Below are positions 222 to 20,009 of a DNA stretch of 26,837 nt, piece by piece. The number at the start of each line of letters is the position of its first letter. The stretch's first letter is position 1. Source of the stretch: an uncultured Bacteriovoracaceae bacterium (GTDB lineage: Bacteria; Bdellovibrionota; Bacteriovoracia; Bacteriovoracales; Bacteriovoracaceae); contig CAKZUQ010000019.1 in the NCBI GenBank assembly GCA_937923325.1, forward strand, positions 1 through 26,837. Reading direction: 5' to 3'. Both the position numbers and the translations under genes were made by a program. Under the pieces are notes generated by a model, which saw only the letters and a program-made list of their open reading frames with translations, was not told where the DNA came from and ran no database searches.

Positions 222-2345
222 TTACGATACAAGAGATAAATCAGGAGTCTTATTGGACAAGAAATTTAACCACTCTTCACTAGCTGGTTTTAAGAACAGT
301 AATTTCTTTTCATCATACTCTTCAAAATATTCATTCATGAAAGTTCTAAATTCACTTTGAATATTTTCTGAATGCTCTTTTAAATTGTCAAAATATGACT
401 CATCTTTATCCTCAACAGTAAAGTTATACATATCCCTAGCTTTACTTCCCTCAGGAGCGAATAAATCTAGTAAGCTATCAGAAAGCTCTTCATCAAGAGT
501 TCCAAGAAGGTCCACTCTCTTTGAGAATTCATATTTTTTTAGAATGTCAGATAAAACTTCTGGTTCCAAATAAGATATTATCGAAAATGGAGCTTTAAAG
601 AGACATACATTTACCCCTTCATTAACAGGTCTAATCTTTAAGAACTCTGAATATAATATCCTCTCTTGGTCTGGTGCCGAAACATAAATAAGCTTCTTTA
701 ACTTTTCAACAAATGGTGATGAAGAAGATGAGTCATGATATTTAGAACAAAGACTTAAAATTTTATCTCTGTTTTCTGAAACAAAATCTGCTGAAAATTT
801 ATTACTGTCACCAATTATAAATCTAACAAGGTCACTATTCATATGGATCATAACTTGACTTAAGAAATTTGCTGTAAAAATATTAAAAAATAATTTTCCA
901 AACTCTTTATTATCCTTAATAAAATTTGAAACTTCTAATGGTGATAATTTCATTACAGAACTAACAAGCTCTTGGTCATCTATCGCACTAGGGACAATTA
1001 AATCACTTACAATTTCTTCATTTACAAATAAAGCTGCTTTGCTCTTATCATACTTATTATTTGAAGTTTCAAGAAGTCCTTTCCAAACTTCTCTTTCTTT
1101 GTCTTGTAGACCATCAAAAAGCTTTAATAGTAGATCATTACTTAAACCATCGGCCAAAAACTTAAGAGCTGATATTTCTTTCTTTTCCGGTGAGCTAATC
1201 CACTTTCTAACTAAAGCTGTCGCAGAAATAAAATTAACTTGTAGATAGTTAATAAATCTTTCCAAAGCTTCACTTTCAGCTGGAGAATCTCCTCCACTTG
1301 ACGATGAGACTTCCATTGGTGAATTTTTATCATCATCCTTTTTACCACCCTCTAACGCCATTTTCTTTTGAGCAAGGTTATTAAGCATTGTTTCAATTTT
1401 TCTAAAGAAAACAAAACATATAACACCTAAAAGAATAGCAAAGAAGATAGCAGCTAAAACATTTGCAAATTTAGCGACAGTTTCAATTTGATCTTTTTCT
1501 ATAATTTTTTGATTAAAAGGTACAAAAGATAGCTTAATTGCTCCTTTCACACCAGAATACGTAATATTTAAGTTTTCCACATACTTTTTAATTTTTGCCT
1601 TATCGCTAGCATCAATACTCTCATCTACTTTTACAAGAATTGTAATTTTGTCCAAATTTTTAAATATATCTAAATTTGAGTTGTATTTCCAAAGCTGCTC
1701 AAAATCACTAATCTTTTTTTCAGACGCTTTTTTTGCAATTTCTAATTTCTCTTTTAGCTCTGCTGTTTTATTTTTAAATTCATTTTCCTTAGATTTTATA
1801 AGTGCTTCGTACTTTTCTTTAGCCTCAGCATTATTACCGACAATTTCTTTAAGAATTGTCTCTCGTCTAAAGTTATCAAAGTCATCAATAAGTGGAGCCT
1901 CTAGTCCTAGCTTTGAAAAAACTATATAGTCTTGAGGTAATTTACTTGGAAGTACATCTGAAGGCTTTATTTTCCCTTTACTCTTATCTTTATCAGCTTG
2001 TTCTTTTTTTTCTTTTGCCTTTTCAGCATTTTTGGCTTCAAGCTCTTTCTTTTTAAGTTCTTCTTGATCAGTATTTTTATCTTTACTAGCTTTACTCTCT
2101 GAATTATTTTGCTCAATATCTGATTTATAGAAATCAGGTGTCTTTGGTTCTATAACCTCAACATTTGTATCTACAGTAAAGCTTTTTCGCTCAACTACTC
2201 CATTAATGCTAGATATTACTTTTTGAGTGATATGTTTTTCAAGTTCAATTTTTTGCCAATGAATACTTGGAATAACATTTGTACGCGCAAAAGCAGTATT
2301 GAATAGTATGCTACAGATTAAAAATAATGAATACAGTTTTTTCAT
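222..2345 (-). CDS. FliF-FliG-like fused membrane protein, putative rotor of a MotAB-linked machine
   Basis: This is a 707-residue protein. Residues 1-20 form a signal-peptide-like helix ending AFA. Residues 33-66 (KVISSINGVVERKSFTVD, NVEV) resemble the start of the FliF periplasmic collar. Residues 75-220 are charged and partly coiled-coil. Residues 232-278 (KITILVKVDE ... LSFVPFN) match the FliF domain before its last membrane helix, and a TM helix follows at 290-314. In the cytoplasm, residues 361-386 (ALVRKWISSPEKKE) resemble the FliF C-terminal helix that binds FliG. Residues 388-425 (ALKFLADGLSNDLLLKLF) resemble the FliG N domain, and 585-640 (LEPEVLSDILKKYEFSKR) resemble the charged FliG C domain. 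FliF RBM1/RBM2 and the FliG EHPQ motif are not seen. An AGGA lies 5 bp before the ATG and overlaps the upstream stop. It is the last gene of the motAB operon. The FliF part is moderately secure, the FliG part less so. Confidence 0.6.
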   Translation of the reverse strand: MKKLYSLFLICSILFNTAFARTNVIPSIHWQKIELEKHITQKVISSINGVVERKSFTVDTNVEVIEPKTPDFYKSDIEQNNSESKASKDKNTDQEELKKKELEAKNAEKAKEKKEQADKDKSKGKIKPSDVLPSKLPQDYIVFSKLGLEAPLIDDFDNFRRETILKEIVGNNAEAKEKYEALIKSKENEFKNKTAELKEKLEIAKKASEKKISDFEQLWKYNSNLDIFKNLDKITILVKVDESIDASDKAKIKKYVENLNITYSGVKGAIKLSFVPFNQKIIEKDQIETVAKFANVLAAIFFAILLGVICFVFFRKIETMLNNLAQKKMALEGGKKDDDKNSPMEVSSSSGGDSPAESEALERFINYLQVNFISATALVRKWISSPEKKEISALKFLADGLSNDLLLKLFDGLQDKEREVWKGLLETSNNKYDKSKAALFVNEEIVSDLIVPSAIDDQELVSSVMKLSPLEVSNFIKDNKEFGKLFFNIFTANFLSQVMIHMNSDLVRFIIGDSNKFSADFVSENRDKILSLCSKYHDSSSSSPFVEKLKKLIYVSAPDQERILYSEFLKIRPVNEGVNVCLFKAPFSIISYLEPEVLSDILKKYEFSKRVDLLGTLDEELSDSLLDLFAPEGSKARDMYNFTVEDKDESYFDNLKEHSENIQSEFRTFMNEYFEEYDEKKLLFLKPASEEWLNFLSNKTPDLSLVS

Positions 2346-2351
2346 AAATTC

Positions 2352-2942
2352 CTATATTGACTTTAATTTAAACTTTTTCTCTAGATAGTTCTTCATTATA
2401 TAAGCATCTCTGTTTTTTGGATTAACACTAAATGCCTTTCTATAATAACTCAACGAATCTTTATATTCTTTCATAAGGTAAAATGTGCTCCCCTTAAGCT
2501 CATGAACAATAGAGAAGTATGGATGCTTATTTGAGACTTGATCCAGTTTTTCAATTGCCTCAGCATAAGACTTACCTCGGATTAATCTTTGGGCATCAAA
2601 TAAATCTGACATAACTCCATCAAAAGATTGAATTAAACTTATTTCTTTAGATACTTCAAGTTTTGCATTCAAGACAACATCATTAGAACCTGAATGTGAA
2701 AAAAGTAGTCGAAATTTTTCAAATCCATCTTTTTGTAACTCAATATTGAATACATTGGATTTTACAAATTGCTTAATAATTTTTCTTATTGGCATTTTAA
2801 ACGGAGTCTTACCTATTTTCATTAGTTGATTTTGACTTGTCATTACATATACTTCAGCACCTTCAGGAGAAGAATTAAGAGTCAGTTCCTCAGCAAATGA
2901 AAGAAAAGAAAACAATATCAAAACTGTAAATAATAATTTCAA
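2352..2942 (-). CDS. Periplasmic PEGA-domain protein with C-terminal TPR
   Basis: This is a 196-residue protein. A signal peptide (MKLLFTVLILFSFLSFAEE) precedes a PEGA-type domain with the typical SSPEGAEVYV and GKTPFK motifs (about residues 20-95). PEGA domains are small beta-sandwiches common in surface and envelope proteins. Residues 105-190 are helical and TPR-like (AEAIEKLDQVSNKHPYF ... YRKAFSVNPKNRDAYI), a scaffold for protein contacts. The start is TTG: it gives the signal peptide its first residue, and a strong GGAGG sits 6 bp upstream inside the end of the preceding gene, whose TGA overlaps it as TTGA. Translation is therefore probably coupled. In this operon it is a natural periplasmic adaptor between the membrane rotor-like protein and the outer-membrane barrels; that role is inferred. 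Confidence 0.8.
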   Translation of the reverse strand: MKLLFTVLILFSFLSFAEELTLNSSPEGAEVYVMTSQNQLMKIGKTPFKMPIRKIIKQFVKSNVFNIELQKDGFEKFRLLFSHSGSNDVVLNAKLEVSKEISLIQSFDGVMSDLFDAQRLIRGKSYAEAIEKLDQVSNKHPYFSIVHELKGSTFYLMKEYKDSLSYYRKAFSVNPKNRDAYIMKNYLEKKFKLKSI

Positions 2943-3562
2943 AAAAGTTCCTCCATATAAATTGTTAGCCCAAGAAGTAATCTCGTAGCAAAAGTTGATG
3001 TTTCAACACCAAAGCCCTTACTTAAAACAAAAGAACCTCTTAGCGCATACTTGTCAGTTATATCATAATACAATCCTCCCTCTCCCTCTAGAGAGAAAAT
3101 AATATCATTTTTTTTACTAAATGCAGTTTTGTACACTAGATATCCTGTAGATAAATTTGCTCCGGCGAAATATTTAAGCTTTGATTTCATCTGTAGGCTT
3201 GATCCCTCTTTTTCATAATTTAAAGTTGAACTTAAAGATTTAAAAAAATAACGAAGTCCAACGCCTACCTGAAAGTATGATGTATCTTCACCTATTAAAG
3301 GTAGAATTGTAGAAATTACATATGATTTATCTACATCATTATACAAATCATATTCTACAGAGGAGATAATTACACTACTGGCCTCAGGATCTGAGTTATC
3401 AATAGATGATGCTGGTGCATTTTGATTTGTTTTTAGCGTGCTTCCTTGGAGTGTAATCGAAGTATTATTAATCCCCATAGAAAAGGATAATTTTTTTCTA
3501 AAAGACTGAGAGAATCCAAGGAGGCTAAAAGAGGTAAATACAATTAATATGGATAGTTTCAT
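2939..3562 (-). CDS. Outer-membrane beta-barrel-like protein
   Basis: This is a 207-residue protein with a signal peptide (KLSILIVFTSFSLLGFSQ). The rest alternates in short amphipathic strands (FQVGVGLRYFF, IIFSLEGEGGLYYDI, ATRLLLGLTIYM) and ends in Phe, the usual C-terminal signature for Bam-dependent outer-membrane proteins. A polar stretch around residues 40-70 could be a surface loop or a periplasmic plug. The size suits an 8-stranded barrel. The ATG lies 1 bp after the upstream stop with no clear ribosome site, suggesting reinitiation. I recognise no specific family. Its place in the motAB operon suggests it is the outer-membrane part of the same assembly. Confidence 0.7.
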   Translation of the reverse strand: MKLSILIVFTSFSLLGFSQSFRKKLSFSMGINNTSITLQGSTLKTNQNAPASSIDNSDPEASSVIISSVEYDLYNDVDKSYVISTILPLIGEDTSYFQVGVGLRYFFKSLSSTLNYEKEGSSLQMKSKLKYFAGANLSTGYLVYKTAFSKKNDIIFSLEGEGGLYYDITDKYALRGSFVLSKGFGVETSTFATRLLLGLTIYMEELF

Positions 3563-3563
3563 T

Positions 3564-4514
3564 CTAACAAGTTAGACCTTCAAATTCATTAGAAATACCG
3601 ATATCTATAAATGTATTTATATTTGTTTTAGATTCTTCTTTAAAAATATCTATTTTATATTTTGAATCTCCATTTTCACATGTTTCAAAATTATAAAATC
3701 TTTGAAACAAACTATCTTCAGAGCTTGAAAAATTAATCTCTTTTAATTTTTCAATGGAACTATCAGTATCAAAATACTTTAATTTAATATTTACACTCTC
3801 TTGAAAAGACTTAATGGATACATTCACAGATGAAACTGAGTCGATTCTCTGAGTGAATAAGTATATTGATTTTAACACTTTTTTGAGATTTTCAACTTCT
3901 TCTAAACCAATATTTACATCAAACTTATCACCATAAGAAAAGTGAACCTTCTGTTTAAAACAAAGATCAGAAGAAAAAAGTTCTACCCAAGCTTCATAAA
4001 AAAGATCGTCATATGAGAAGTTATTTTTCTCATTAACTTCCTTATAAACTTCTTTTATATCAATAATATTAAAATCATTTAATTCATGGATTTTTAAGTA
4101 GTATTTCTCACCAGTTGTCTTAAGTAAGAACTCATTTCTTTTAACATTATGAAATGAATCCATTAAGTTTTTTTGATTATAAATAAGATCTAGACCTTTA
4201 ATATTTGAAGCGTTTCTTTTAAGTTCTCCAGTCTTATGAAATATCATGTAATTAACACCAACAAATTCATATACTTTAGAGTCTAAAGATTCTTTAGACT
4301 CGACACTTGGAATCTGAACGCTACCTTGTCGATCGAAATACTTTCCAATGGCAAGAAAGCTTAAACTCATTGCTAGTCCATAGCCAATATATTCATGAGG
4401 CACAATCATTTCTATCTGATTAACAACAACAGCAAATAAAGATGCTGTAATAATAATAAATGAAAAGAAAAATGATCCTTTAGAGATATTCAGTTTAGTT
4501 AGCAGAAACTTCAT
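3564..4514 (-). CDS. Two-TM protein with PAS-like and degenerate histidine-kinase-like domains
   Basis: From the ATG at 4514 this is a 316-residue protein. That start has an AGGGG-type ribosome site 5 bp upstream; an upstream in-frame start at 4550 would add 12 residues and lie deeper in the preceding gene. Two TM helices (about 16-33 and 43-59) anchor a large cytoplasmic part. Residues 80-158 look PAS-like (VNYMIFHKTGELKRN ... TTGEKYYLKIHEL). Residues 195-300 follow the order of a histidine-kinase ATPase domain: a helix where the N-box should be (LEEVENLKKVLKSIYLF), a strand pair, FDTDSSI where the G1 box DxGxGI should be, then LFQRFYN like an F-box. The N-box Asn and the glycine boxes are missing, and I see no phosphoacceptor His box. 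If the fold assignment is right, this is a pseudokinase. It overlaps the upstream gene by 20 bp. It may sense or gate the motor; that is speculative. Confidence 0.6.
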   Translation of the reverse strand: MKFLLTKLNISKGSFFFSFIIITASLFAVVVNQIEMIVPHEYIGYGLAMSLSFLAIGKYFDRQGSVQIPSVESKESLDSKVYEFVGVNYMIFHKTGELKRNASNIKGLDLIYNQKNLMDSFHNVKRNEFLLKTTGEKYYLKIHELNDFNIIDIKEVYKEVNEKNNFSYDDLFYEAWVELFSSDLCFKQKVHFSYGDKFDVNIGLEEVENLKKVLKSIYLFTQRIDSVSSVNVSIKSFQESVNIKLKYFDTDSSIEKLKEINFSSSEDSLFQRFYNFETCENGDSKYKIDIFKEESKTNINTFIDIGISNEFEGLTC

Positions 4515-4740
4515 TACGCCCCTCTCTTCTAGTATTTCTATTACTAGCATTTTTTCTATTTAATACACTTTGAGAAGATTTTTGTCGTAAAAATGAACTT
4601 CTCCAATCTAATTTGATTGTCTTTGTTGAATCCATCTTCATAAATACTTTTTCAACTTCATCAAATTTTTGAAGTGATTGTGAATCAGGCTTTGATTTTT
4701 TTTTAAAATAACTTTGAATTTTTTCTAGAGTCGCTTTCAT
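4495..4740 (-). CDS. Small basic cytoplasmic protein, unknown
   Basis: From the ATG at 4740 this is an 81-residue protein rich in Lys, Arg, Ser and Asn (MKATLEKIQSYFKKKSK, then an R/N-rich tail), with no signal peptide or TM helix. A TTG at 4779 in the same frame would add 13 residues; it has only a distant AAGGA. Neither start has a well-placed Shine-Dalgarno. A perfect TATAAT ends 6 bp before the ATG, so a leaderless transcript is possible. The last 20 bp overlap the start of the downstream membrane protein, consistent with coupling. The family is not recognised. Its conservation in the operon would need comparison with relatives. Confidence 0.55.
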   Translation of the reverse strand: MKATLEKIQSYFKKKSKPDSQSLQKFDEVEKVFMKMDSTKTIKLDWRSSFLRQKSSQSVLNRKNASNRNTRREGRNEVSAN

Positions 4741-4792
4741 AATAATATTATAGGATGTTTTTAGAAAGCTTTTATACAAGGAAATATATTCC

Positions 4793-6139
4793 TTAAAAGA
4801 TATATCCCGAGTTAATTTGAAAACCTAGTGAGTTATTATTATAAGATCTCGTTCCAACAAATTCAGACACATCTGTAAACATCTTCCCTCCTACAAACAA
4901 CTTCTTCCATACTTTATACATTGTTACCTCTCCAGATAGAGAAAATCCTGTTACTTCTGATGTATACATGGAGGATGTGGCCTCTCCAGCAATAATTCTT
5001 CCAACACCTAGTGAGATAGTGTACGGCCTAATAAAATTTCCATTAAACTTTAGATACATAGTCATTACATAAGATACAACCTCGATATTCTCTAACTGAC
5101 TACCAAGCTCAACTAAATTTACGAAGCTATTACTATTTCTGGATATTTCGAACTGTAGATAAAAATGTTGAAACCATTTATACAAATAAGATAACTTCAA
5201 GTTTAGATTATCTGATATCTCATAATTATTTTCTCCAAAGTTTTTAAGATATTCAATTGAGGCGATAAAACGACTTTTACTCTTATAACTTGCTGCCGTA
5301 TCAAAATCAATAGCAACACCATAGTAATTAAGTGAATTGATTGTAACTAAATTGGGATCAACGAGTGTAGACTTAGTATTAATCACATGAACAAGACTAG
5401 AAAATTTTACATAGTTGTTCAAATCAATATCAAAAGTTTCATTTTCTATGTCTAAAAAGTCTTCAGGTTCCTCTACAGTGTAAGTTTTTTGTTTTTTAAT
5501 TAGATTTTTTTTCCTTTGAAGTTTCTTTTTCTCTCTTTGAATGATTTTATTATTCTCTATTTCTTCATCTACCTTTTTTTTTTCTTCTTTTCTTATTTTT
5601 TTTTCATTTTTTTTTTCATTTTTTTTTTGATTTTTTGCTTTTTCTTGAAGTTTAGGTGATATTTTTTCATCTTTTATTGTATTTATATTTTCTTCACTCT
5701 TCTTCTCTTTTTGAAGTTTTGTATTCAGAGCCTTTTCTTTATTAATAATCATTTTTTCAGATAATAACTTTAAGACTAGTTTTTGGACTTCAAACAAAAG
5801 TTTTTTCTTCTCCACACGAGATTTATCAAATTTGTTAATTTCTCTTCCATTTTCAAGTAATATAGCACTTATAGCATGTCCTTGCTGTAAATCATCATTC
5901 CACTTATAGAAGTCTCCAATTAATTTTATAGAATAAACTTTCTGTTTTTTAGAGAGATTTTTTACTTCAGAAATTAAATATTGATATTTTTTTGATCTAA
6001 GAAGTAACCTATTCACAGTTCTTTTAACTTCAATTACTTCTCGTTTTGATAATTTAGCTATATTTACATCAGACAATCTAATGTAATCATTCCCAATAGC
6101 AGAAGTAGCAATTAATAGAATCAATAAAAAATGAATCAA
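4793..6139 (-). CDS. Lysine-rich coiled-coil plus outer-membrane beta-barrel protein
   Basis: This is a 448-residue protein. It has a signal peptide at 1-16 (MIHFLLILLIATSAIG), a small globular periplasmic domain at about 17-125, an extremely Lys/Glu/Asn-rich helical linker at 126-225, and a C-terminal region of alternating strands at about 230-448 (FYLQFEISRNSN, RPYTISLGVGRIIAG, LGFQINSGYIF) ending in Phe, as in outer-membrane barrels. A positively charged linker between a periplasmic domain and a barrel suits contact with peptidoglycan. The start is TTG: no ATG lies near the signal peptide, and GGAG sits 8 bp upstream within the last codons of motB. The linker is encoded by four runs of 9-10 A, which may slip. 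It directly follows motB, so it may couple the stator to the outer membrane (inference). Confidence 0.7.
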   Translation of the reverse strand: MIHFLLILLIATSAIGNDYIRLSDVNIAKLSKREVIEVKRTVNRLLLRSKKYQYLISEVKNLSKKQKVYSIKLIGDFYKWNDDLQQGHAISAILLENGREINKFDKSRVEKKKLLFEVQKLVLKLLSEKMIINKEKALNTKLQKEKKSEENINTIKDEKISPKLQEKAKNQKKNEKKNEKKIRKEEKKKVDEEIENNKIIQREKKKLQRKKNLIKKQKTYTVEEPEDFLDIENETFDIDLNNYVKFSSLVHVINTKSTLVDPNLVTINSLNYYGVAIDFDTAASYKSKSRFIASIEYLKNFGENNYEISDNLNLKLSYLYKWFQHFYLQFEISRNSNSFVNLVELGSQLENIEVVSYVMTMYLKFNGNFIRPYTISLGVGRIIAGEATSSMYTSEVTGFSLSGEVTMYKVWKKLFVGGKMFTDVSEFVGTRSYNNNSLGFQINSGYIF

Positions 6140-6141
6140 GA

Positions 6142-6861
6142 TTAGTTCTCCTGAGAAAAGTAAACACCAAAACCAAGTTTTTCAGTTTTGGGATTCACAA
6201 AGTCTAAAACTTTAATCACAACTCTTCTATTTCCTCTCATATTATTTTCTATAAGTTGTCCAAATTGATCTGTATCCGGAGCAAGTGGCTTACTATCTCC
6301 CATACCAATAGCAATTAGATTGCGAGGATGGAACCCTGCCTGTTCAAAATAAGATATAACATGTGAGGACCTAGCAGAACTTAGTTGCCAGTTAGAGCTC
6401 ATATTTTCATTATACTTAGCATCAAGAGAATCAGTATGACCTTCAACAAGTATTTTATAATTAATACTTTGACCTTTAATTATCTCGATTAACTCTTGAA
6501 GTTCTCTAATGCTTTTTTGTGACAATTCATATTTTCCAGATTCAAATAAAACAGTTCCACTTATCACCATTATTAATTTGCCATCAGAAACAGTAACTTT
6601 GGCCATCTTTTTAATTTCTGGATGCTTAGCAACTTCCTCTTCAATATTTTTTAATTTTAGAAGTGAGCTTTTATATTTATTCTTTCTAAAAGCTTTTGAT
6701 ATAACCTTTGTTTTTTTACTAAAACCAACAGGATCAAAGTTAGCGAAGGCCATCATTAATATAAAGAAGCAGGCTACCAGTGTCATCATATCTGCATATG
6801 ATAACAACCATCCAGAATCATCATCGGTAGTTACTTCTACCTTTCTTCTTCTTTTACTCAT
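6142..6861 (-). CDS. motB: MotB-type stator subunit with OmpA-like peptidoglycan-binding domain
   Basis: From the ATG at 6861, which overlaps the motA stop as ATGA, this is a 239-residue protein; an in-frame TTG 18 bp upstream is less likely. A short basic N-terminus (MSKRRRKVEV) leads into one TM helix (WLLSYADMMTLVACFFILM). The TM helix carries the conserved proton-binding Asp at position 24, in the YAD motif. The OmpA/MotB domain in the C-terminal half shows VEGHTDS, an SSARSSHVISYF helix, GMGDSKP and NMRGNRRVVI, all typical of peptidoglycan binding. With MotA it forms the ion-driven stator that in flagella turns the rotor through FliG. The intact Asp suggests an active proton channel. It sits in a non-flagellar operon, so its rotor partner is probably encoded downstream. 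Confidence 0.93.
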   Translation of the reverse strand: MSKRRRKVEVTTDDDSGWLLSYADMMTLVACFFILMMAFANFDPVGFSKKTKVISKAFRKNKYKSSLLKLKNIEEEVAKHPEIKKMAKVTVSDGKLIMVISGTVLFESGKYELSQKSIRELQELIEIIKGQSINYKILVEGHTDSLDAKYNENMSSNWQLSSARSSHVISYFEQAGFHPRNLIAIGMGDSKPLAPDTDQFGQLIENNMRGNRRVVIKVLDFVNPKTEKLGFGVYFSQEN

Positions 6862-7643
6862 GATACAATCTTTTTCCAATCAACTCTATCTTTAGGCTCT
6901 AAAAATGAATTTAATTTTTCAGCAGTATAAACAACATTAGATTTCTTTAAAATTTGTTTTACTCCTTCAATAATGATGACATTTTGAAAGTCCTTCTCTT
7001 TGGCAGCTTCAATTAGATTCTCTCCAATTGGAATAATAATTAAGTTTGCAAAGGCTACACCATATAAAGTAGTTATTAAGCATACTCCCATTGCAGGACC
7101 AATCATCTTAAGAGCATCTTCTCCACCTAAATTTGCCAATAGGACGATCATCCCAATTGTAGTTCCCATCATTCCAAATGCTGGAGGAAATTTACTAATA
7201 ACTTTTATTTTATTTGCTTCTTCAGTAGCGTATGAATTCATATTTTCCAGACGCTCTTCAAGGATTTCTATAAGTTCTTCATTGCTCAAAAACCCGTCAT
7301 TTAAAATTGTCAGAGCTTCTTTTAAGAAGGGATCTTTCACAGAAGGTAAAAAGCTCTCAATACTCTCTCCTTTATTTATAGCGCTAACTATCTTAATTAT
7401 TTCAGATACTAATTTTGAGTTTTTTCCGCTACTAGAACTAAAAACGTGTTTTAAGAAAATTTTGGCCAAAACCATAAATCTATTTAGCCTAAAGGATATT
7501 GCTGTAGCCGCGAGTGTCCCACCAAGAACAATAAATAAACTGGGATAATCTAAGAACATTGTTAAGTCATCTGAAGATAACATAAGCCCGCCTAAGAGGA
7601 CCCCAATAGACATGCATAAACCAATAATTGAAAAAATATTCAT
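6858..7643 (-). CDS. motA: MotA-type stator subunit
   Basis: This is a 261-residue protein, somewhat shorter than enterobacterial MotA and near the usual length of many MotA/PomA proteins. It has four TM helices at about 3-21, 34-52, 150-170 and 180-202, with a large cytoplasmic loop between the second and third. The conserved segment before and within TM3 (KFPPAFGMMGTTIGMIVLL) contains the Pro/Gly residues of the ion-translocation path, and TM4 has the matching GPAMGVCLITTLYGVAFAN. A good AAAGG lies 7 bp before the ATG. It is the first gene of the eight-gene operon and overlaps motB by 4 bp. Family membership is firm; whether it serves a flagellum or another motor cannot be read from this gene alone. 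Confidence 0.94.
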   Translation of the reverse strand: MNIFSIIGLCMSIGVLLGGLMLSSDDLTMFLDYPSLFIVLGGTLAATAISFRLNRFMVLAKIFLKHVFSSSSGKNSKLVSEIIKIVSAINKGESIESFLPSVKDPFLKEALTILNDGFLSNEELIEILEERLENMNSYATEEANKIKVISKFPPAFGMMGTTIGMIVLLANLGGEDALKMIGPAMGVCLITTLYGVAFANLIIIPIGENLIEAAKEKDFQNVIIIEGVKQILKKSNVVYTAEKLNSFLEPKDRVDWKKIVS

Positions 7644-7761: not shown

Positions 7762-10700
7762 TTAAGGAATATCCTTAACACAACGAAAACCTGCTTTTAT
7801 TTCATCTTCAAATGCAAAGAGCTTCCAAGAAGTACTAAAAGGTCCGCCAAAGTTCTCGTTATAACTCCCACCAAGCAGAGGCATAAATAAGAAAGACCCA
7901 GAGCTAGGAAAGCCATCAAGAGGTACAATAACTTTATCACCGGAAGTAAAATATTGCTTTACACTGTCTGCTTGAATATCAATACTTTTTTCATCGCAAA
8001 GGGAACTATTAGAACTTGGCTTATGCATACCTACAGCAAAATTAAAGCAATCAGCACTTTTAAGCGAAAAAAGTTTATCGCTAGTTGTATTGTTATAAAA
8101 GAAGCTATCACTCTTTAAATCTTCACTTAAAAGATCTGTCCCCGCACTTAATGTTTCAGAGCTAAATTCAGCTAAATTACCAACAAGATCAAAAACTCCA
8201 TATCTAGATTGACAATTATCAGACTCTCCAGCCAATTTTAAAACGCTACCACTAGCACTATAGTCTACATTACAGTCTTTATCAGTAAAGACCTGATTAT
8301 TACTAGCACCTAAAGAGTAGTCTTCTTCTGTCCACAATGCAGCTTGAGTAAATTCTAATTTTGTTGGTAGCCTTTTACCACCTTTGGATATACAGTAATC
8401 CCTAGCATGTGACCTATCTAGCTCAACTGGTGTATTACCGGCTATAGTGGAGATTAAATCTACTCTTGTTTGGTCTAAGGCAATAGTATCTAAGTCCTCA
8501 ACTTTTCTGACACCAGCTTCAAAAAGATCAATTTGAAAAGATTCTCTTTCGATTCTAGATCCATTAGTTCCAGCTCCACTTAAATTACAACCATAATTGC
8601 TAAATCGACTAAAGTTTTTATTACTCATCTGACAAATTTGCTTATTTAACATCCATTTATGGACAAGTGCCATGTTTAATTCAGGAGTGTCAATTTCAAT
8701 AATGGAGTCAGGGTCATTATGATCACTTGGAATATGACTTCCACCTACAGCTATAACTGTAGGGACAACTTTATAAAAGTACTTTGTACTACTTTTAACA
8801 TCGGTTGTATCGTTAAAAGATGTTTGATTGTAATCGGTAATTATAGCATATGGATTATCTAGATTTATAGAATTTCTATCGTCTATAGATCTATAAATAT
8901 GTATAGGTCCTGGTGTGTAGCTTGCATCTAATAAAATAGAATTCCATGAAAGACTTACAGATGGTTCACTCAAAACAGAAGAGCCTACAGCCTCAACTCG
9001 ACCAATTGACTTTATTTGTGTCCAACCGCTAAATATTGAGTTTTCTGGAGCCGACTGGCCAACGAGGTCTACTTTAACAGATCCATCATTTACAGCTGTT
9101 CCATTTGTTGTATACAAAATTTCAAATTCTCCACTATAATTCGTTCCTATTGGTGAATCCGCTGGAGGACTAAAAGTAAAAGTTAACTCACAACTTACAT
9201 TCCTTGGAATACTCGAAGGGCAACTACTTTCAAAAAATGTAAATTCACCTGTTGAATTGGAACCATTTATGAAATGTGCTGTACTACTATTAAAAACAAA
9301 AGGAAATTCTCCAACATTTCTAAATTGAACTCTTAAATCCTTAGACTCTCCTGTTACAACTCTTCTAAAATCAACATTACCCAAAGAAGCTATTAGTCTT
9401 GAAGGAGAGAGCGCTCTTCCACTAAAGTTAACAGAAACACTTTCACGTATACCATCTCTGTTATTATAAAAGAAAATAACATTGTTTCTATAACTGCTGC
9501 TATTAGATGTAAAAGACAAAATAATATTACAACTAGACTCAGGAGCAATATTACTAATTCTCACATCCCTAAAATTAGCTCGAGTCGTCGTACATGCAAG
9601 TGTGTCACTTCTCACATCGACACCATCACCTCGAATAACTATATTAGAAGCTTCGCCTAACCCTATATTTTTAAAATTTAAGGATACATCTTTTGCTAAG
9701 CCTTGAACAAAATTTCCTGTAAAAAGGTACCCTGTAGACCCATTACTCCATATCTCATTTTTATTTTCTCCAGGTAAGTCAATAATGAGATGTCCCGCCG
9801 ATTCATCGGGTCTACCCTCAATTATAAAGCTAACACTATCTTGAAAAATTCCATTAAAAAAATTGACGGTAAGGATATCTGCTTTGTTTCTTGCATCAGA
9901 GGTGGGAAGGCTCACAGAAGCTGTAGCATCTTGTGGAGAAAATGAAATATCTCTAAAACATTCTCCTACAAATGAGCGAGATGTACAACTAAGGAGAGAC
10001 CTTCCACTTAAATTAACACTCTCTCTTTCACTAAAATCACTTCCTTCAGTGTTAGAAAATTGAAAGCTCACATTACTAACCCTAAAGTCTCCAAAGTTTC
10101 GAAATGTAAACCTTCTAGTACTAGTTCCTCCAGGAGAAGTAACAGAGACAAACCTTGATTGAGAGAGGCTAAACGTTCCAAGTTGACGAACAGAAGCATT
10201 TAAGTCTAGTTCAACGGTATAAAAAGGAGCTCCACTAGGTGTTAAAGCACCTATTTGATTATCTGAATAATTTAAAACAATACTACTACGATATGAGCCA
10301 AAAGGAAGATAAGGAGTTGCTATAGATGGATCAGCAGCAGCAACATCAGATGTTCGAACTTCAACTTCTATAAAACAAGAGTCTCCAGATAGTAAATAAT
10401 TAGAGCATAATCCGCCACTAACGTAATTACTCGAAGATTGAAATATGTCTACTGGAGTCGAATTAACATAATGAATAACTCTGTTAGCTGGAGAGCTTAA
10501 CTGACCTTGCCTTAAATCTCTTACGATATCGATGTCATAAGCAGTACTAGGGCCAATATTTCTAAGCCACAAAATTTTTCTAAACTGAGTATTGATTGAG
10601 CCATCATCATTAAAGTAGTCTCCATTCTCAAAAATTCTCTGAAAGCTGTAGCGTCCAATAGGATTTACATCATTGATATTTTCATACCATTGTAGGTTAG

Positions 10701-12369
10701 GCTTATTAAAAGAGGCTCCACTTAAAGAAAATCTATGGGAAGAGTCTCTAACAGATGAACTGGGATCGCTTGAATATTCAATCAGAGCTCTAGAAGCAAA
10801 GCCTCCATCTCCTAGCTTATTATCAAAAGCTCCAACAAATCGCGGTAAATATTGAATAGTAAAATTACAACTATTACCTGCTTGTAAAGTCTGACCACAT
10901 TCATTGCTAACTAAGCTAAACCCAGTATAACAATTTGGATCTATGCTTGTAGATTGGGTTGTACAAACTTCACTAACCTGAGTCGATGGGTCTGCAACAG
11001 ATAGAGAGAAGCGCTTAAGGTTTGATCCCAGTATCCTTAAAGAGCTTACAGGAGCCTGACCTATATTCTTCATAGTAAAGACTTGCCTCTCCTGTTCAAA
11101 AATTCCAATTCTATTAAAAGTAAAAGATTCTAAAGAACTATTAGAAATATCCTCAGGCTGATTCAAAACAACAACTCCAGGGATTAAGCCATTTGCACTA
11201 AAATTTATTGGTACTTGATGACTAAGATTCTGCTTTGAATTATTGTAATCAATAGACAAATTAGTGCTAAAACTTCCACCTATTCCACTTAAAACATCAC
11301 CTTCAGGTGATGTAAAAACAATATAAAGATCACACTTTTGAGATATACCTAACTGTTTTTGACTTACACAAGTTGAGCGCGAGCTATCGACTTTAAAATT
11401 CAACGCATCAGACAAATTAATAGAGTTGATCGTTGCTGTTGCATAACCTCTGTTTATATAAGTTACTCTTTGCTCTCTTTGCCTAGTCCATAAAACATTT
11501 CCAAAGTCATAACTAGAGTCTGTATCAAAAAGTTTCACATCAGCAATGAATTCATTAATATTAACACTAAAAGATAGAGCTTCTTCTTTTATAACATTTG
11601 ACTGATCTGTATAAGATAGGTTTAAAATAGAAGAAAAGCGTCCCTCTGTAGCACCTTGATTCATTTCAATTTCTAAAAAGCAAGACTGCTTAGAATTTAA
11701 CATATTAGAGCAGTTACCATTAATTCCAGGAAAGCTTCCCCCTGTAAAATAAACGTTCCCAGTTCCAGTAAAAGAACTGGAAATATCTCTAGCTACAATA
11801 CCTCCATTATTTGTAATTTTTGCTATAATGGTTCTACTAAAAGGAGGCTCAACAAGGCCAAAACTAAACCCATTTGTATTTTCAAACTCAATAGATGCTC
11901 TATTTCCAGCACTACCTCGAAACTTTAGTGTTATTTTTTTATCTTCAAGGCCATCGTTATAACTAACGTTAAAATTCTTACTAAAAATACCTTCAGAGCT
12001 AGCATTGAATTCAACTTCAATAAGACAGGAATCTAGGCCAGACGCAAGTTCAGTACCACAAGTACCTGCAGTTCCAGGGTACTTTAAACCAGTATAAGCA
12101 AATTCTCCAGAGTCAATTCCTTCAAGCGTATTCATAACTAAATTAAAAGCAGGGAATCGTCCGCCCTTCGAAATAGAAATCAATTTTGAGACTTTATTAC
12201 CAAGTAAAACTTCTCCAAATTCAATTATTGAATTAGATGAACCAGTTAAGCTAATACTATCAAGATTAACATCAACTTTTGCTTGTGCACCCTTTTCAAC
12301 ATCAATACTTTGATTACAGGAAGAAATAGTCATAATAAAAGAAAATATAAACGCTTTTAGTATATTCAT
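7762..12369 (-). CDS. Giant lipoprotein with choice-of-anchor-D repeats and a SUMF1/FGE-like end
   Basis: This is a 1535-residue protein. A lipobox (TISSC, Cys18) ends a short signal peptide. About eight repeats of roughly 120 residues follow. Each has a strand motif like FGEVLLGN, an N-x-G turn (NNGG, NIGQA, NVGEF) and a paired-Cys block such as CGTELASGLDSC. This is the pattern of choice-of-anchor-D (ASPM/SPD-2/Hydin-like) domains, so they form a long stalk. A fibronectin-III-like domain occupies about 1120-1220. Residues 1232-1535 resemble FGE-sulfatase/SUMF1 folds: GGKRLPTKLEF, RYGVFDLVGNLAEF, LLGGSYN and AGFRCV. The Cys pair that binds copper in true formylglycine-generating enzymes is not present between GGS and GFRC, so binding rather than catalysis is likely. 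It starts 6 bp after the related upstream gene. Surface adhesion or prey contact is a guess. Confidence 0.85.
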   Translation of the reverse strand: MNILKAFIFSFIMTISSCNQSIDVEKGAQAKVDVNLDSISLTGSSNSIIEFGEVLLGNKVSKLISISKGGRFPAFNLVMNTLEGIDSGEFAYTGLKYPGTAGTCGTELASGLDSCLIEVEFNASSEGIFSKNFNVSYNDGLEDKKITLKFRGSAGNRASIEFENTNGFSFGLVEPPFSRTIIAKITNNGGIVARDISSSFTGTGNVYFTGGSFPGINGNCSNMLNSKQSCFLEIEMNQGATEGRFSSILNLSYTDQSNVIKEEALSFSVNINEFIADVKLFDTDSSYDFGNVLWTRQREQRVTYINRGYATATINSINLSDALNFKVDSSRSTCVSQKQLGISQKCDLYIVFTSPEGDVLSGIGGSFSTNLSIDYNNSKQNLSHQVPINFSANGLIPGVVVLNQPEDISNSSLESFTFNRIGIFEQERQVFTMKNIGQAPVSSLRILGSNLKRFSLSVADPSTQVSEVCTTQSTSIDPNCYTGFSLVSNECGQTLQAGNSCNFTIQYLPRFVGAFDNKLGDGGFASRALIEYSSDPSSSVRDSSHRFSLSGASFNKPNLQWYENINDVNPIGRYSFQRIFENGDYFNDDGSINTQFRKILWLRNIGPSTAYDIDIVRDLRQGQLSSPANRVIHYVNSTPVDIFQSSSNYVSGGLCSNYLLSGDSCFIEVEVRTSDVAAADPSIATPYLPFGSYRSSIVLNYSDNQIGALTPSGAPFYTVELDLNASVRQLGTFSLSQSRFVSVTSPGGTSTRRFTFRNFGDFRVSNVSFQFSNTEGSDFSERESVNLSGRSLLSCTSRSFVGECFRDISFSPQDATASVSLPTSDARNKADILTVNFFNGIFQDSVSFIIEGRPDESAGHLIIDLPGENKNEIWSNGSTGYLFTGNFVQGLAKDVSLNFKNIGLGEASNIVIRGDGVDVRSDTLACTTTRANFRDVRISNIAPESSCNIILSFTSNSSSYRNNVIFFYNNRDGIRESVSVNFSGRALSPSRLIASLGNVDFRRVVTGESKDLRVQFRNVGEFPFVFNSSTAHFINGSNSTGEFTFFESSCPSSIPRNVSCELTFTFSPPADSPIGTNYSGEFEILYTTNGTAVNDGSVKVDLVGQSAPENSIFSGWTQIKSIGRVEAVGSSVLSEPSVSLSWNSILLDASYTPGPIHIYRSIDDRNSINLDNPYAIITDYNQTSFNDTTDVKSSTKYFYKVVPTVIAVGGSHIPSDHNDPDSIIEIDTPELNMALVHKWMLNKQICQMSNKNFSRFSNYGCNLSGAGTNGSRIERESFQIDLFEAGVRKVEDLDTIALDQTRVDLISTIAGNTPVELDRSHARDYCISKGGKRLPTKLEFTQAALWTEEDYSLGASNNQVFTDKDCNVDYSASGSVLKLAGESDNCQSRYGVFDLVGNLAEFSSETLSAGTDLLSEDLKSDSFFYNNTTSDKLFSLKSADCFNFAVGMHKPSSNSSLCDEKSIDIQADSVKQYFTSGDKVIVPLDGFPSSGSFLFMPLLGGSYNENFGGPFSTSWKLFAFEDEIKAGFRCVKDIP

Positions 12370-12375
12370 AACAAA

Positions 12376-15300
12376 TTAGTACCCCACAAGAGCACTACAC
12401 CTTCCACCATGTAAAAATCGACCACTTTCACTATTAACATCCCCAGTTGCAAATTCATCACCTTCAGAAAACATCATTCCCCATCGTCCAAAAGTTGTTT
12501 CACTAACAAGACTACTAATATTTCTTCTTATATCTCCTCCAGCAACAACCCTAAGGTCTCTAGTGGCAGCTGGCCAAAAAAATCCACCAGCTCCATTATC
12601 CCAAAACGAAAGAGAGCTTCTATAACTTCTAAAATGATGTGTTAAAGAAACTGAGTTTTGATAATTAAATCCTGACTGAATTGAATGTATCCTATTATCC
12701 TCTATAGCATTTGCACCCAAAGGCATTCCCATTATAGTGTTGTAAAATCCTCCATTTCTAAAAATGATATTAGAGTTCATATTTATTATACTATCTCTTG
12801 AAGCGAGAGCCCCTAAATATCCTGGAAAAGCTTGAGGGCTAAAGCTATCTACATCTATAAGTGAAAAAAACGTATTATCACTAGATTTCCAGTCAACCTG
12901 CTCTGGTGTAATAATGCCTGTCTGAGCATCAGGGTCAGTATAGCCTGAGCTACATCTAAATACTCCATTAATAACACTACACCTAAAGTAATCTCTTAAA
13001 CTTTCCCCAACGTTTCCATAGGCATCTTGAATACCGTATCTTGTAATACACTGCGAACTATTAAACATATTATACTGAGTTCTATTTAATGTATCTAAAC
13101 TATCAGAACCCGTATTTAAAAATGAGTAAAGCAACGTCCCACTGTTTGCAAAGCGAGCTCCTGAAAAAGGGTTACTTCTAATAAATTTTGAGTAGCGCAG
13201 ATCTAAGCTTGCATCTATATCAACACTACCTGTCGAAATACTAAGACTAGAGTTATTTCCTCTATAGGCTCTAGAAACTCCATAATGATAATTAGTATTA
13301 CAAGTAGTATTTTCTGTACGATGTCCAATCAAATTTGTCATAGTGTTTTGATCTAATTGTGGTTGATAGTCAAATGAAGCGATTTGCTCTTTTCGACTCA
13401 ATAAACTCTTATTGACTTTAGGAGAAGTTCCTCCACTATAATCAACCTGAATTTCCCTTGCCTGACATAAGTCTTGAATTTTGCTATAACTCTGTCTTCT
13501 CATTGCAGGTATACCAGCTTGATTAGAAAAAATACGAGCATACTGCTCGCTATTTGCAGTATGACGACCAGATACAAGTGACCACTGATTTCCGTACTCC
13601 ATATCTGTTGCACCAGCTGTTTGAACATAAGCTTCTATATTTATTCCAAAGCGGACATAGACACTGCCTCTTAAAGCTTCTAAAGATAAATCTTGTGGAG
13701 CAAAGCTTCCAGCACAATCTCCAACATACAAGTCTGTATTTCTATTCGCTCCATTTAAATTCGCTTCAAAGTTTGGGTTATCAGGATTATCATCTCTTGG
13801 ATGACTAGGATGTCCAAAGAAGTGATCAGAAACATTTTCAGTTTGTCTACTTAACACCAAAGAGTTACCATTATTCCTAACTCGGCATCCCTTACTAACA
13901 ATATCTCCCGATCCTGCAGTGTAGTTAGGATCCCCTCTTGTATAAGAAACTCCCATCTCAAATCGATCAACAAATAAAAAACCTCCAATATCGTAATATT
14001 TCTGTCCATTAACTTGGGTGTGACCAAGTCCATTATAAGAACATCTATAATTATTCACAACATCCACAGGCTTTTGTAAAATATCACAAGCTGCTTTATT
14101 AGCAATCCAAGGGTGAACTAGTGCCATATTATTTGGTGGGACTATAACCTTAGGGTAAGAGATAATATTTAAATTAGGAGCACTTGTCCCTACTTGTTCT
14201 CCATTAAGGAATAGTTCTACTTTATAGTAATATGCTTTTCCTTTGTTTAAGGTATTCACCTCATTTGATGAGTTAATATCATAAGTTAAGCCTTCTCCAC
14301 CAATGACTATAGAGTCACCTGTCTCGACCCCGTAGTCAATAAAACGCCCAAAGTACTTATCACTACTACCACTTAAACTTTCAGCTCCGGCTGCAACAAG
14401 AGGAGCTTCAAAGTAATTAGTTAGAGTTCCAGCGACATTCCTTTGAGTTACAATCGTAAAATTATTGCCACTATTAAATAAACTATCTATTGAGCTTTGT
14501 GTTTGACCTGGATCAGATGCCTCATATCTATAGACTCTATAGCCAGAATTCTCTTGTTCTGTCTCAGTCAGATTATCGTAATATGTTTTAAATTTTTGTC
14601 CATTAGATAATGTAAAATCATTCCACTCTAATACAACAATTCCTCTATCACTACTGGTTACACCTGGATTGTTTAAAATATCACTCGCACCTAGAGCTTC
14701 TGGATACAGCAAAGATCCTCCCTGGTCATCAGCAGACCTAAGTTTCATAGCTTCTTGAACAGGAACATTTCTTTTAATCTTTGGCCCTAAAGCCATAATA
14801 TTAAACCAACCTTCATGTACTGCAGTTATAGCAGGCGTTTGTCCCTCTACTATTGACTTAAAATCAGAAAGTCCAGGAATAGATGTATTTGCAATAACAC
14901 CAATAGAATAAATTGAATTTGGAGCTAGTCCTCCCGAGAGAGGAAAACTATAATTTATTTTCGTCCCGTCAGAGCTTAACGTACCCACCGCACTTAAGTT
15001 ATCATCAACGTTTCCTTGAGAAAAACGAGTATCAAGAACACATTCCTCTGAACCTGTTGATAAGTCTCCACAAGTAAAGTCGGCAGCCTGAATAACTCTG
15101 TTATCTCTAATATTATATGCTATTGCAAATTTATTATAAAGATTTGAAAAGTCAGAGATACGAGTACTGTTATCTAGAGGCTCAATAGAAAATGAACAAC
15201 TAAACGGTCTTGTCTGCCCGTTATCATCTGTACTACTACAGGTTGGTTGAGTGGAAAAACGAAATTGAGGTACAGAAGTTCCTTCAAACCTTTTAATATC

Positions 15301-16752
15301 TGTTTTTACTCCAATTGAGTTTCCATCGGAGTTAATTAATTGAGCACTAAAATAATATACACCGCCAACTAAAAGGTTTCCAACCTCTCTAACATTTCGA
15401 GAAAAAGCTCCCTGTCTATTTATATAAAGATTATTATTATCACTTGGAACTGTAGTTGATAGTAATGTTCCGTCAGCCTCAGGAGCTCCATTAACAATAG
15501 AATGTTGATAAATTTGAATATCTTGAAAGCAGCCTTCATTACTAATATTAAGGTTTAATTCAACAGTTCTTAAGATTCCATTTTCAAACGTAATACCAGA
15601 ACCTAAAACTGCATCTTTTCTTTGAGGCCTGACAACAAGACTTGAGTCACTACTTTTACAAGCTTTATTAGTGTCAACCGAATCACAAGCATACACTGCA
15701 AAGTGGTATTCACTACCGAAATTTAAGTTATTTACTGTATAACTTCTAGAACTTAAATTAGTAACGGTATTAACTGTATAATTTACATCTGAGTTTGTTC
15801 TAGGATCAACACTACTAGGAGTAAAGGCTCCTGCTGATCCAGTGACAACAAAGAATCGATTAAAGGCTCCTTGTCCTTCCCCCCAAGTCACATCAACTTT
15901 TGCAGTAGAACAACTTGTCTCATCCGCCACTGCAGAAGTAATTCCGTTAAAACTAATATCTGTTACAACACTTAAAGTATCTCGCCTAATAATTTTTTCA
16001 TTCTTTTCTTCATTGCCACTCCTATCAAACGCTCTAACTATAAAGTAATAAGCTGTATCAGCTGAGAGAGCTGTAATCTTTCGATTTAAAGAAAATGCTG
16101 AAGAAACTGTCACTTTAGATATGCTAGAGCCTCCAAACAGACTCTCATTAGTTAAGTCTTCAGCGCGCTGACTATAATAAATATTGTAACCTGCTGGATT
16201 TAAATTATTTTGTCCAAAAGGGTCATTTACAGGCTTTACAGCTTCATTCCAATAAAGTTCAAGTTCACTAGAGGCGGCCACCCCAGAAGAATTTTCAACT
16301 GCTTTTAATCCACGAAATTCAGGAACATAGTAATCAAAAGTTCTAATCGGAACTTCAAATCGATTAAGATCTTCTACACCAGAATTTAAATCAAATGCTC
16401 TTACAATAAAAGAGTAATTCGTTCCAAGTCTTAAATTATCAACAACGATTTCTAACTGACCAGCAAAATTTTCTTGTAACTGAGTTGATGAAAACGAAGC
16501 AGATGGAACAGCTAGATTTGAGTTGGTATAGACCCTATAAGAAAAAATTCCACTGCCCCCTACTGCAGGCAAGAACCTTAAAAGAACTTTATTATGAGCA
16601 ATTGCCTTTACTTCTCCAACACCTAAACCAAAAAAAATGAAATCAGGATTTGTAGGAATATTATTTGACTGAGTAAACTCCGGAATCTCTTCCTCAATAG
16701 TACCAACACAAGAAGTAAAAATTAGAATAAGTAACAAACCAAATATTTTCAT
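12376..16752 (-). CDS. Giant lipoprotein with fibronectin-III-like repeats and a diverged SUMF1-like end
   Basis: From the ATG at 16752 this is a 1458-residue protein. AGAGGA lies 4 bp upstream, and this start gives a clean lipoprotein signal (MKIFGLLLILIFTSC, Cys15). An in-frame ATG 18 bp further upstream is possible. Several fibronectin-III-like domains fill residues 40 to about 860, with repeated YSFIVRAFD, YYFIVRAFD and EYHFAVYACD strands. From about residue 874 a long C-terminal module begins NNMALVHPWIANKAACD, closely matching the equivalent point in the downstream paralogue. It continues with SUMF1-like landmarks (LLSRKEQIASF, RYGIQDAYGNVGESL, GGRCSAL) and long insertions. No catalytic metal site is evident. 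It is first of the two-gene lipoprotein operon. The paralogues share the end module but have different stalks. Confidence 0.82.
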   Translation of the reverse strand: MKIFGLLLILIFTSCVGTIEEEIPEFTQSNNIPTNPDFIFFGLGVGEVKAIAHNKVLLRFLPAVGGSGIFSYRVYTNSNLAVPSASFSSTQLQENFAGQLEIVVDNLRLGTNYSFIVRAFDLNSGVEDLNRFEVPIRTFDYYVPEFRGLKAVENSSGVAASSELELYWNEAVKPVNDPFGQNNLNPAGYNIYYSQRAEDLTNESLFGGSSISKVTVSSAFSLNRKITALSADTAYYFIVRAFDRSGNEEKNEKIIRRDTLSVVTDISFNGITSAVADETSCSTAKVDVTWGEGQGAFNRFFVVTGSAGAFTPSSVDPRTNSDVNYTVNTVTNLSSRSYTVNNLNFGSEYHFAVYACDSVDTNKACKSSDSSLVVRPQRKDAVLGSGITFENGILRTVELNLNISNEGCFQDIQIYQHSIVNGAPEADGTLLSTTVPSDNNNLYINRQGAFSRNVREVGNLLVGGVYYFSAQLINSDGNSIGVKTDIKRFEGTSVPQFRFSTQPTCSSTDDNGQTRPFSCSFSIEPLDNSTRISDFSNLYNKFAIAYNIRDNRVIQAADFTCGDLSTGSEECVLDTRFSQGNVDDNLSAVGTLSSDGTKINYSFPLSGGLAPNSIYSIGVIANTSIPGLSDFKSIVEGQTPAITAVHEGWFNIMALGPKIKRNVPVQEAMKLRSADDQGGSLLYPEALGASDILNNPGVTSSDRGIVVLEWNDFTLSNGQKFKTYYDNLTETEQENSGYRVYRYEASDPGQTQSSIDSLFNSGNNFTIVTQRNVAGTLTNYFEAPLVAAGAESLSGSSDKYFGRFIDYGVETGDSIVIGGEGLTYDINSSNEVNTLNKGKAYYYKVELFLNGEQVGTSAPNLNIISYPKVIVPPNNMALVHPWIANKAACDILQKPVDVVNNYRCSYNGLGHTQVNGQKYYDIGGFLFVDRFEMGVSYTRGDPNYTAGSGDIVSKGCRVRNNGNSLVLSRQTENVSDHFFGHPSHPRDDNPDNPNFEANLNGANRNTDLYVGDCAGSFAPQDLSLEALRGSVYVRFGINIEAYVQTAGATDMEYGNQWSLVSGRHTANSEQYARIFSNQAGIPAMRRQSYSKIQDLCQAREIQVDYSGGTSPKVNKSLLSRKEQIASFDYQPQLDQNTMTNLIGHRTENTTCNTNYHYGVSRAYRGNNSSLSISTGSVDIDASLDLRYSKFIRSNPFSGARFANSGTLLYSFLNTGSDSLDTLNRTQYNMFNSSQCITRYGIQDAYGNVGESLRDYFRCSVINGVFRCSSGYTDPDAQTGIITPEQVDWKSSDNTFFSLIDVDSFSPQAFPGYLGALASRDSIINMNSNIIFRNGGFYNTIMGMPLGANAIEDNRIHSIQSGFNYQNSVSLTHHFRSYRSSLSFWDNGAGGFFWPAATRDLRVVAGGDIRRNISSLVSETTFGRWGMMFSEGDEFATGDVNSESGRFLHGGRCSALVGY

Positions 16753-17067
16753 AAGTTCCTCTTTCACCATAAAAGTAAAAACGATAATATACTTATTATA
16801 TATCGGCTGACCGAACCTATGACTTAAATAGAAAAAATTTTGAACAAAACTCTCTAAGTACTTAGAAATAATATGATATTTTTTTCCTTTTTTATCATTA
16901 ACATCTATACAGTTTAAGTTCTATGCCTCATTTAATTTGCTTAAATATTACTTCTTACTCTTTACTTATCGTACAGCACAGACAAATATTAAAAAAACAT
17001 TAACATATCAAACTAATAGAAAAAATTGCCGAAAGTTAATAAGCTTATTTAAAGGAAATCAAAATTG
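16753..17067. other. AT-rich intergenic region upstream of the lipoprotein operon
   Basis: No convincing gene lies here. On the minus strand it should hold the promoter of the two giant lipoprotein genes. It also contains a perfect 12-bp palindrome, AATAAGCTTATT, at 17038-17049, just ahead of the decayed plus-strand gene, and an AAAGGAAAT ribosome-site-like sequence at 17051-17059. The rest is T-rich and A-rich runs with no tRNA-like or strongly structured element that I can see. Confidence 0.5.
16795..16814 (-). promoter_or_regulatory. Candidate -10 box with adjoining dyad upstream of the lipoprotein operon
   Basis: On the minus strand a perfect TATAAT occupies 16800-16795, about 43 bp before the chosen start of the upstream lipoprotein gene. 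Immediately upstream is the imperfect dyad TCGGCTGACCGA at 16803-16814, with TCGG/CCGA arms. This GC-rich island in AT-rich DNA falls where a repressor would overlap the -10/-35 spacer. No good -35 hexamer is visible, which would suit activator dependence. The call is tentative. Confidence 0.28.
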
Positions 17068-18381: not shown

Positions 18382-18747
18382 ATGCTTAAGTTTATACTTA
18401 TTATCTTTTCGATATCCACATCTTTTGCTTCTATAGATTGTTTGACAATTACAGACTCTCTAGATAGAGAATATTGCTTTAAGAAGTCACTTAGATCAGA
18501 AGAGCTTAAACTTAAAAAACAATTGGAAACACTTAAAAAAAGCTTATCTGCAGATCAAAAGAATCAAGTTATTTCTCAACTTGATTTCAAAATACAAAGA
18601 AATAAAGAGGAGGCCAGTTACTTATTGAAAAAGCAGGCTATCTTCACTTCTCACAAAGAAAAAATAAGTAAGCTTTCTATTACAAAAAAGAAAAAGAAAA
18701 AAAACAAACTTAAAGATTCATTAAAGAAATTAGGTATTAAATTATAA
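18382..18747 (+). CDS. Small secreted lysine-rich helical protein, unknown
   Basis: This is a 121-residue protein. A signal peptide (MLKFILIIFSISTSFAS) is followed by two Cys residues about 12 apart (DCLTITDSLDREYC), which could form a disulphide, then helical Lys/Leu/Glu-rich sequence and a run of six Lys near the C-terminus. AGAGAGG lies 6 bp before the ATG. Its stop overlaps the next start by one base (TAATG), so it is probably co-translated with the DUF1499 gene. I know no named family. The basic tail would suit binding to peptidoglycan or anionic lipid. Confidence 0.7.
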   Translation: MLKFILIIFSISTSFASIDCLTITDSLDREYCFKKSLRSEELKLKKQLETLKKSLSADQKNQVISQLDFKIQRNKEEASYLLKKQAIFTSHKEKISKLSITKKKKKKNKLKDSLKKLGIKL

Positions 18748-19913: not shown

Positions 19914-20009
19914 TTTAACCCCCCACACAATACATACTTATATTTTAAATAAGACAACTTAAGTATTTCATAGTAATAAATCAATATTAATAAATAAGGT
20001 AAAGAGATT

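Follow-up and report, generated by a model that had tools for sequence, protein, structure and literature searches.

A putative non-flagellar envelope motor of Bdellovibrionota with a MotAB stator and a FliF-FliG fusion-like rotor protein

We analyzed a 26.8-kb stretch of DNA (26,837 nucleotides of contig CAKZUQ010000019.1, referred to as the window) from an uncultured Bacteriovoracaceae bacterium, in which eight minus-strand open reading frames (ORFs) are packed into positions 222-7643, from a MotA-like stator gene (starting at 7643) to a gene for a protein of 707 amino acids (aa) that ends at 222. This module probably encodes a dedicated non-flagellar rotary motor of the cell envelope. The reading is carried by the conservation of the genes in relatives, the homology of the 707-aa protein to FliF and FliG, the modeled barrel fold of an outer-membrane component, and a stator clade separate from flagellar stators. 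The original prediction had described eight tightly spaced genes on one strand, and the ORF coordinates agree with the dense packing; neighboring ORFs mostly overlap or sit a few bases apart. The small basic gene may well start at ATG 4740, which would give 81 aa and leave ∼50 bases after the previous stop.

The 707-aa rotor protein (222-2345, minus strand, as all genes of the module) consists of a first transmembrane segment (TM1) or signal (residues ∼1-20), two RBM3-like halves (∼25-64 and 231-278) with an insertion between them, a second transmembrane segment (TM2) inside a helix at 285-333, a FliF C-tail-like helix (∼358-384), and FliG-like domains (387-685) with a torque-helix-like segment (635-646). 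In fold searches, an AlphaFold2 (AF2) model of this protein matches FliF RBM3 and FliG. With a profile of 16 divergent relatives, the top three PDB sequences were a FliG (E 6.6e-7) and two FliFs (4.7e-4 and 7.7e-4), and a hidden Markov model (HMM) from 16 relatives, window excluded, recovers the window protein at E 3.7e-88. The FliG-type rotor domain is a remote homologue: Pfam gives no FliG match for the window protein, FliG_N was found at E 0.09 in one of 20 relatives, and profile-profile comparison with FliG gave a pairwise E of 2.5e-4 with a probability of only 43%. The rotor profile A3 matched none of ten flagellar FliGs and none of three FliFs under default filters. With filters off, FliG scored 4.2-18.7 bits with A3 (controls up to 4.6) and 11.9-18.0 bits with a 71-row profile (controls up to 7.6), and FliF scored 0.1-6.6 and 1.3-6.6 bits, respectively. 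Since the FliF scores are not clearly above the controls, the FliF claim rests on the fold match of the model and the PDB profile matches; FliF RBM3, TM2 and C-tail followed by FliG are found in one chain, though the FliF stretches are individually weak. The torque-helix charges are largely conserved across the rotor family. Taken together, profiles and model support the reading of the 707-aa protein as a putative fusion in which a shortened FliF (RBM3, second TM and C-tail) runs directly into FliG; the label had originally been read by eye. The reduction of FliF to RBM3, TM2 and C-tail suggests a minimal ring. The A3 homologue search returned four proteins, query included, and matches of the rotor family to SLATT_4, NT5C and TNFR_16_TM were taken as chance.

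The stator genes are of the flagellar-motor type. The MotA-like (PomA-type) subunit (6858-7643) matches Pfam MotA_ExbB (1.5e-17), while the MotB-like subunit (6142-6861; ORF to 6879) matches MotB_plug (1.5e-11) and carries an OmpA-type peptidoglycan-binding domain (OmpA, 3.1e-17). Their nearest NCBIfam models are PomA and MotD/MotS, with scores under the cut-off of every model shown. The start codon of MotB is the ATG at 6861, which shares the bases ATGA with the MotA stop codon, and the Asp of the YAD motif is therefore residue 24; this position is Asp in all 52 aligned module MotBs, window included. The intact Asp24 and OmpA domain claimed from the sequence are thus confirmed.

We placed 81 MotA-like rows in a quick tree with Shimodaira-Hasegawa-like approximate likelihood ratio (SH-aLRT) support and no bootstrap. 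In this tree, 52 module MotAs, that of the window among them, form a single branch (SH-aLRT 97) apart from 12 flagellar MotAs, and the module stators are separate from the flagellar ones that their genomes also encode. Five rows labeled as module by position fall outside the branch: L057, whose MotA is flagellar, and the variants L094, L095, L096 and L101, which have long branches. Excluding these five, L107 and TolQ-like rows, MotA column 131 is Arg in 52/52 module rows vs. Glu in 8/8 PomA-type rows, and column 109 is Glu in 49/52 vs. Lys in 7/8. These charge swaps fit a different rotor partner. Against this, the equivalent of MotA E98 is not conserved in module rows, and the window MotA has N90-K91, with R/K at position 90 in 47/52 module rows.

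A single-sequence scan of genome contigs found no rotor relative and a plasmid search gave no match, while an alignment-based scan of genome contigs detected 11 loci (the named loci). Counting weak matches, hits to the rotor profile occur in 46 of the 129 genomes of the class to which G004 belongs, and in 70 of the 368 genomes of the phylum. The locus table comprises 72 loci from 63 genomes, some of them near-copies (L145/L146, L152/L153, L091/L092). It leaves out L072, which is the same place as L002, and L095-L101, which are variant paralogues or lack a full rotor gene; L098 contains the remaining genes of the module, but its rotor gene covers just the first 124 aa. Genome matches in G041, G158, G180, G272 (weak) and G365 (E 3.2e-31) lie outside the locus set. 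A PEGA-TPR gene lies at most 300 bp from the rotor gene in 67 of the 72 loci, the five others being L064 and L151, which are at contig ends, and the variants L091-L093. Within 9 kb of the rotor gene, the small barrel is present in 59/72 loci, the coiled-coil barrel family in 33/72, MotA in 49/72, MotB in 49/72, and both in 48/72. Because the L057 pair is of flagellar type and the L094 MotA lies outside the module branch, the stator counts were lowered to 47/72 (MotA), 48/72 (MotB) and 47/72 (motAB pair). Restricting the count to the 42 loci that have 5 kb or more on each side, we found PEGA-TPR in 41, the small barrel in 38, MotA and MotB in 33 each, and the coiled-coil barrel in 23. The genes downstream of this motAB thus do co-occur with it in relatives, as the original prediction implied.

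Gene order and strand differ between loci, with motAB divergent in L004, L005, L007 and L008, upstream in L009 and L010, and downstream in L011. Variable order and orientation would also be seen if the genes were decaying leftovers of a flagellar operon; this explanation is hardly credible, as the open frames are long, key residues are conserved in many genomes, and the association is kept despite rearrangement, a persistence that argues for joint function. The module offers specific genes for study in a named isolate, e.g., Bacteriovorax sp. BSW11_IV (L002), in which the rotor gene and a module-type MotA share a 38.5-kb contig, the latter ∼18 kb from the rotor gene at the contig end.

Variant arrangements were also observed. 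In L091-L093, a stand-alone FliG-like protein of 355-356 aa follows a leucine-rich coiled-coil TM protein of 511-521 aa that replaces the FliF part (L091:7844-10461, L093:8155-10794). L094, L095, L096, L101 and L107 are more distant MotAB-containing paralogue clusters; the first four carry FliF-FliG-like candidates of 497-591 aa, and the 497-aa protein of L095 has a Pfam FliG_C match (G010:C36, 34 bits).

Most carriers other than G009 have flagellar genes elsewhere. Ten of the 11 genomes from which the named loci come encode a separate FliG, and nine have other, flagellar-type stators on a different tree branch from the module, so that the motAB pair of the module is not their only stator. A canonical MotA of 290-293 aa was found in G001, G004, G007 and G011, and a PomA-type one in G001-G007 and G010; G008 and G009 showed no flagellar-type stator in the places examined, which covered part of the MotA_ExbB matches. 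The module could nevertheless be a flagellar accessory that adds a further stator set and a further ring to the basal body for torque or sheath handling. The PomA-like MotA and the FliF and FliG homology of the rotor protein are in line with this, as is the presence of FlhA in 42 of the 46 rotor-matching genomes of the class, and Morehouse is said to have reported in 2011 that all three B. bacteriovorus motAB pairs serve one flagellum. We consider such an accessory role unlikely, since flagellar FliG and stators are encoded elsewhere, no rotor match was obtained in 75 of the 117 genomes with FlhA, and G009 keeps two module clusters (L009 and L066) in a genome (a 2.9-Mb draft, completeness not stated) with no FlhA, FliG_C, Flagellin_N or Flg_bb_rod match and only a partial FliF match (27 bits). 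No export, rod, hook, filament or chemotaxis gene was found among the 20 Pfam-scanned window genes (the scan left out 24563-25096, the cut gene 26411-26836 and short ORFs). G071-G073, also devoid of FlhA, FliG_C, flagellin and rod matches, gave no rotor match, so the module is not simply tied to loss of flagella.

L135:915-2411 (G009) and L136:1142-2635 (G073) encode, in a similar context, a protein of ∼498 aa that partially matches YscJ_FliF (26-27 bits). Both genomes are without flagellar markers, and the protein may be another non-flagellar FliF relative.

On the envelope side, the 207-aa protein (2939-3562) is predicted to be a small outer-membrane beta-barrel. Its AF2 model (predicted template modeling score 0.68) matches NspA (E 1e-7) and also OmpA and OmpX in Foldseek, and the family HMM finds it at E 4e-47; in the barrel alignment A2, the window protein is missing its first Met. 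The adjacent gene (2352-2942, TTG start) encodes a putative periplasmic PEGA-TPR-like protein of 196 aa, for which Pfam TPR and PEGA matches are weak and under cut-off and a window-free family HMM gives E 3e-76. A 448-aa protein (4793-6139) combines a coiled coil with a putative C-terminal outer-membrane barrel; it has no Pfam match, returned only itself as a homologue-search query, and is matched by a window-free family HMM at E 4e-17. Its C-terminal residue is Phe, as is typical of outer-membrane barrels.

These parts would also suit an energized envelope system of the Tol-Pal or Agl-Nfs type that moves lipids or a surface polymer, with the FliG-like part as a scaffold and not a rotor: Agl-Glt also has outer-membrane barrels and a TPR-type periplasmic protein, and the PilZ gene beside MotB in L009 suggests second-messenger control. 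However, the stator carries a MotB plug and an OmpA domain, and a mere scaffold would not need the largely conserved torque-helix charges, which makes this alternative quite improbable.

The remaining two module genes are assigned by position. The two-TM protein (3564-4550; start possibly ATG 4514), which has no assigned function, and the small basic protein (4495-4779) have larger counterparts at the same gene position in relatives, and window-free HMMs match the window proteins only marginally (E 0.046 and 0.009, respectively). The two-TM protein had been called PAS/kinase-like. The kinase part was not substantiated, as Pfam found no kinase domain in the window protein, and the PAS part holds for one of the four counterparts scanned in L002, L003, L004 and L008, that of L004 (PAS_8, E 6.4e-5); the L091 counterpart had no PAS match either. 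A PilZ domain (1.8e-7), which hints at regulation by c-di-GMP, was observed in L009:8111-9175, a gene between MotB and PEGA-TPR. Together with the PAS domain of L004, it suggests second-messenger control.

Two giant genes lie upstream of the module on the same strand (7762-16770). They encode putative lipoproteins of 1535 aa (7762-12369; HYDIN/ASH Ig-like repeats and an FGE-sulfatase-like domain) and 1464 aa (12376-16770; fn3 domains), in which lipobox-like motifs, ISSC and FTSC, respectively, were read from the sequence. ORFs of at least 1000 aa are present in 34 of 41 rotor loci of at least 18 kb vs. 6 of 20 control regions, which were hand-chosen from long contigs and not drawn at random, and homologues of the two giants in 19/72 rotor loci (E <1e-10) vs. 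0/20 controls (E <1e-5). The giant lipoproteins may be the load of the motor, or its surface cargo. Elsewhere in the window, a sigma-70-family factor gene adjoins one for an NrsF-like membrane protein (20237-21383; Pfam Sigma70_r2 7e-9, NrsF 4e-12). A DUF1499 gene and its NAD-binding-like neighbor (18747-19928) recur beside the module in L010:5900-7569, and L010 also holds relatives of the two giant genes.

From these components we infer the stoichiometry, ring assembly, torque, periplasmic coupling and output of the proposed rotary motor. MotAB stators would be anchored to peptidoglycan via the OmpA domain of MotB, and the FliF-FliG fusion protein would form a ring whose FliG-type face MotA turns or pushes. 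In this ring, RBM3 would lie in the periplasm and the FliG torque domain on the cytoplasmic side, with TM2 crossing the inner membrane. Movement may then pass through the PEGA-TPR protein and the RBM3 insertion to the small outer-membrane barrels, from which it would probably reach the giant surface lipoproteins of the neighboring genes; gliding, attachment or prey contact would be the output. The weakest step of this model is the presumed output, namely gliding or contact with prey through the barrels and giant lipoproteins. The gene set, conserved in relatives of predatory bacteria, may encode a machine not described before that serves movement on surfaces or contact with prey. Our more tentative proposal, which we put forward as a real possibility and not as the expected outcome, is a new class of nanomachine in which a flagellar stator-rotor pair operates apart from any flagellum or type III secretion system. 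This machine would span the inner to the outer membrane, move giant surface lipoproteins, and could be an as yet unidentified gliding or prey-invasion motor in part of Bdellovibrionota.

No description of such a module was found in the open-licence literature, outside of which most subscription papers and preprints fall. In the accessible text of a 2025 study of MotAB evolution (PMC12505986), stators are split into flagellar and generic groups; the name Bdellovibrionota is not used there and Bdellovibrio is mentioned once, for AglRS. Across 16 predator genomes, 1-4 motAB pairs are given in PMC11323537, with three in HD100 and one in Halobacteriovorax marinus.

The original prediction had likened the module to the Agl-Glt gliding complex of Myxococcus. 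The two share an ion-driven stator with TPR and outer-membrane-type parts, and possibly gliding, but the likeness does not extend to the motor: the B subunit of the module is a MotB with plug and OmpA domain, and the stator is nearest to the PomA, MotD and MotS models and not of the AglRQS type (TolQ/TolR-like). According to the excerpted text of PMC3169522, in which FliG does not occur, AglR is listed as MotA/TolQ/ExbB and AglQ and AglS as ExbD/TolR family, and an Agl-Glt-type cluster, Bd0828-0838, is proposed for Bdellovibrio gliding; this cluster is a rival to the module for that role. It is by motor type that the module is set apart from Agl-Glt. The type IX secretion/gliding motor GldLM, compared by its published description, resembles the proposed machine as a 5:2 motor with an outer-membrane/surface load; GldLM drives outer-membrane and surface parts and is similar but not homologous to MotAB, as stated in PMC13104615. 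An engineered full-length Salmonella FliF-FliG fusion can assemble rings as a single chain (PMC6079021); it differs from the module protein in being engineered, in its full FliF and in its flagellar context. The flagellar motor itself shares with the module a MotAB stator with plug and OmpA domain and the order of FliF RBM3, TM2, C-tail and FliG domains, so that the flagellar-like motor side of the original prediction is extended to the rotor protein. Unlike the flagellar motor, the module has FliF and FliG as a single chain that is too short before RBM3 for RBM1 and RBM2, and it has outer-membrane barrels and a PEGA-TPR protein in place of scanned flagellar genes. If our reading is true, a FliG-type rotor that serves a non-flagellar machine would bear on the evolution of the flagellum, as a core of rotor and stator could exist, or have come to exist, independently of type III export. 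The parts of the module have homologues in known machines, yet the module departs in a defining feature from each machine with which it was compared.

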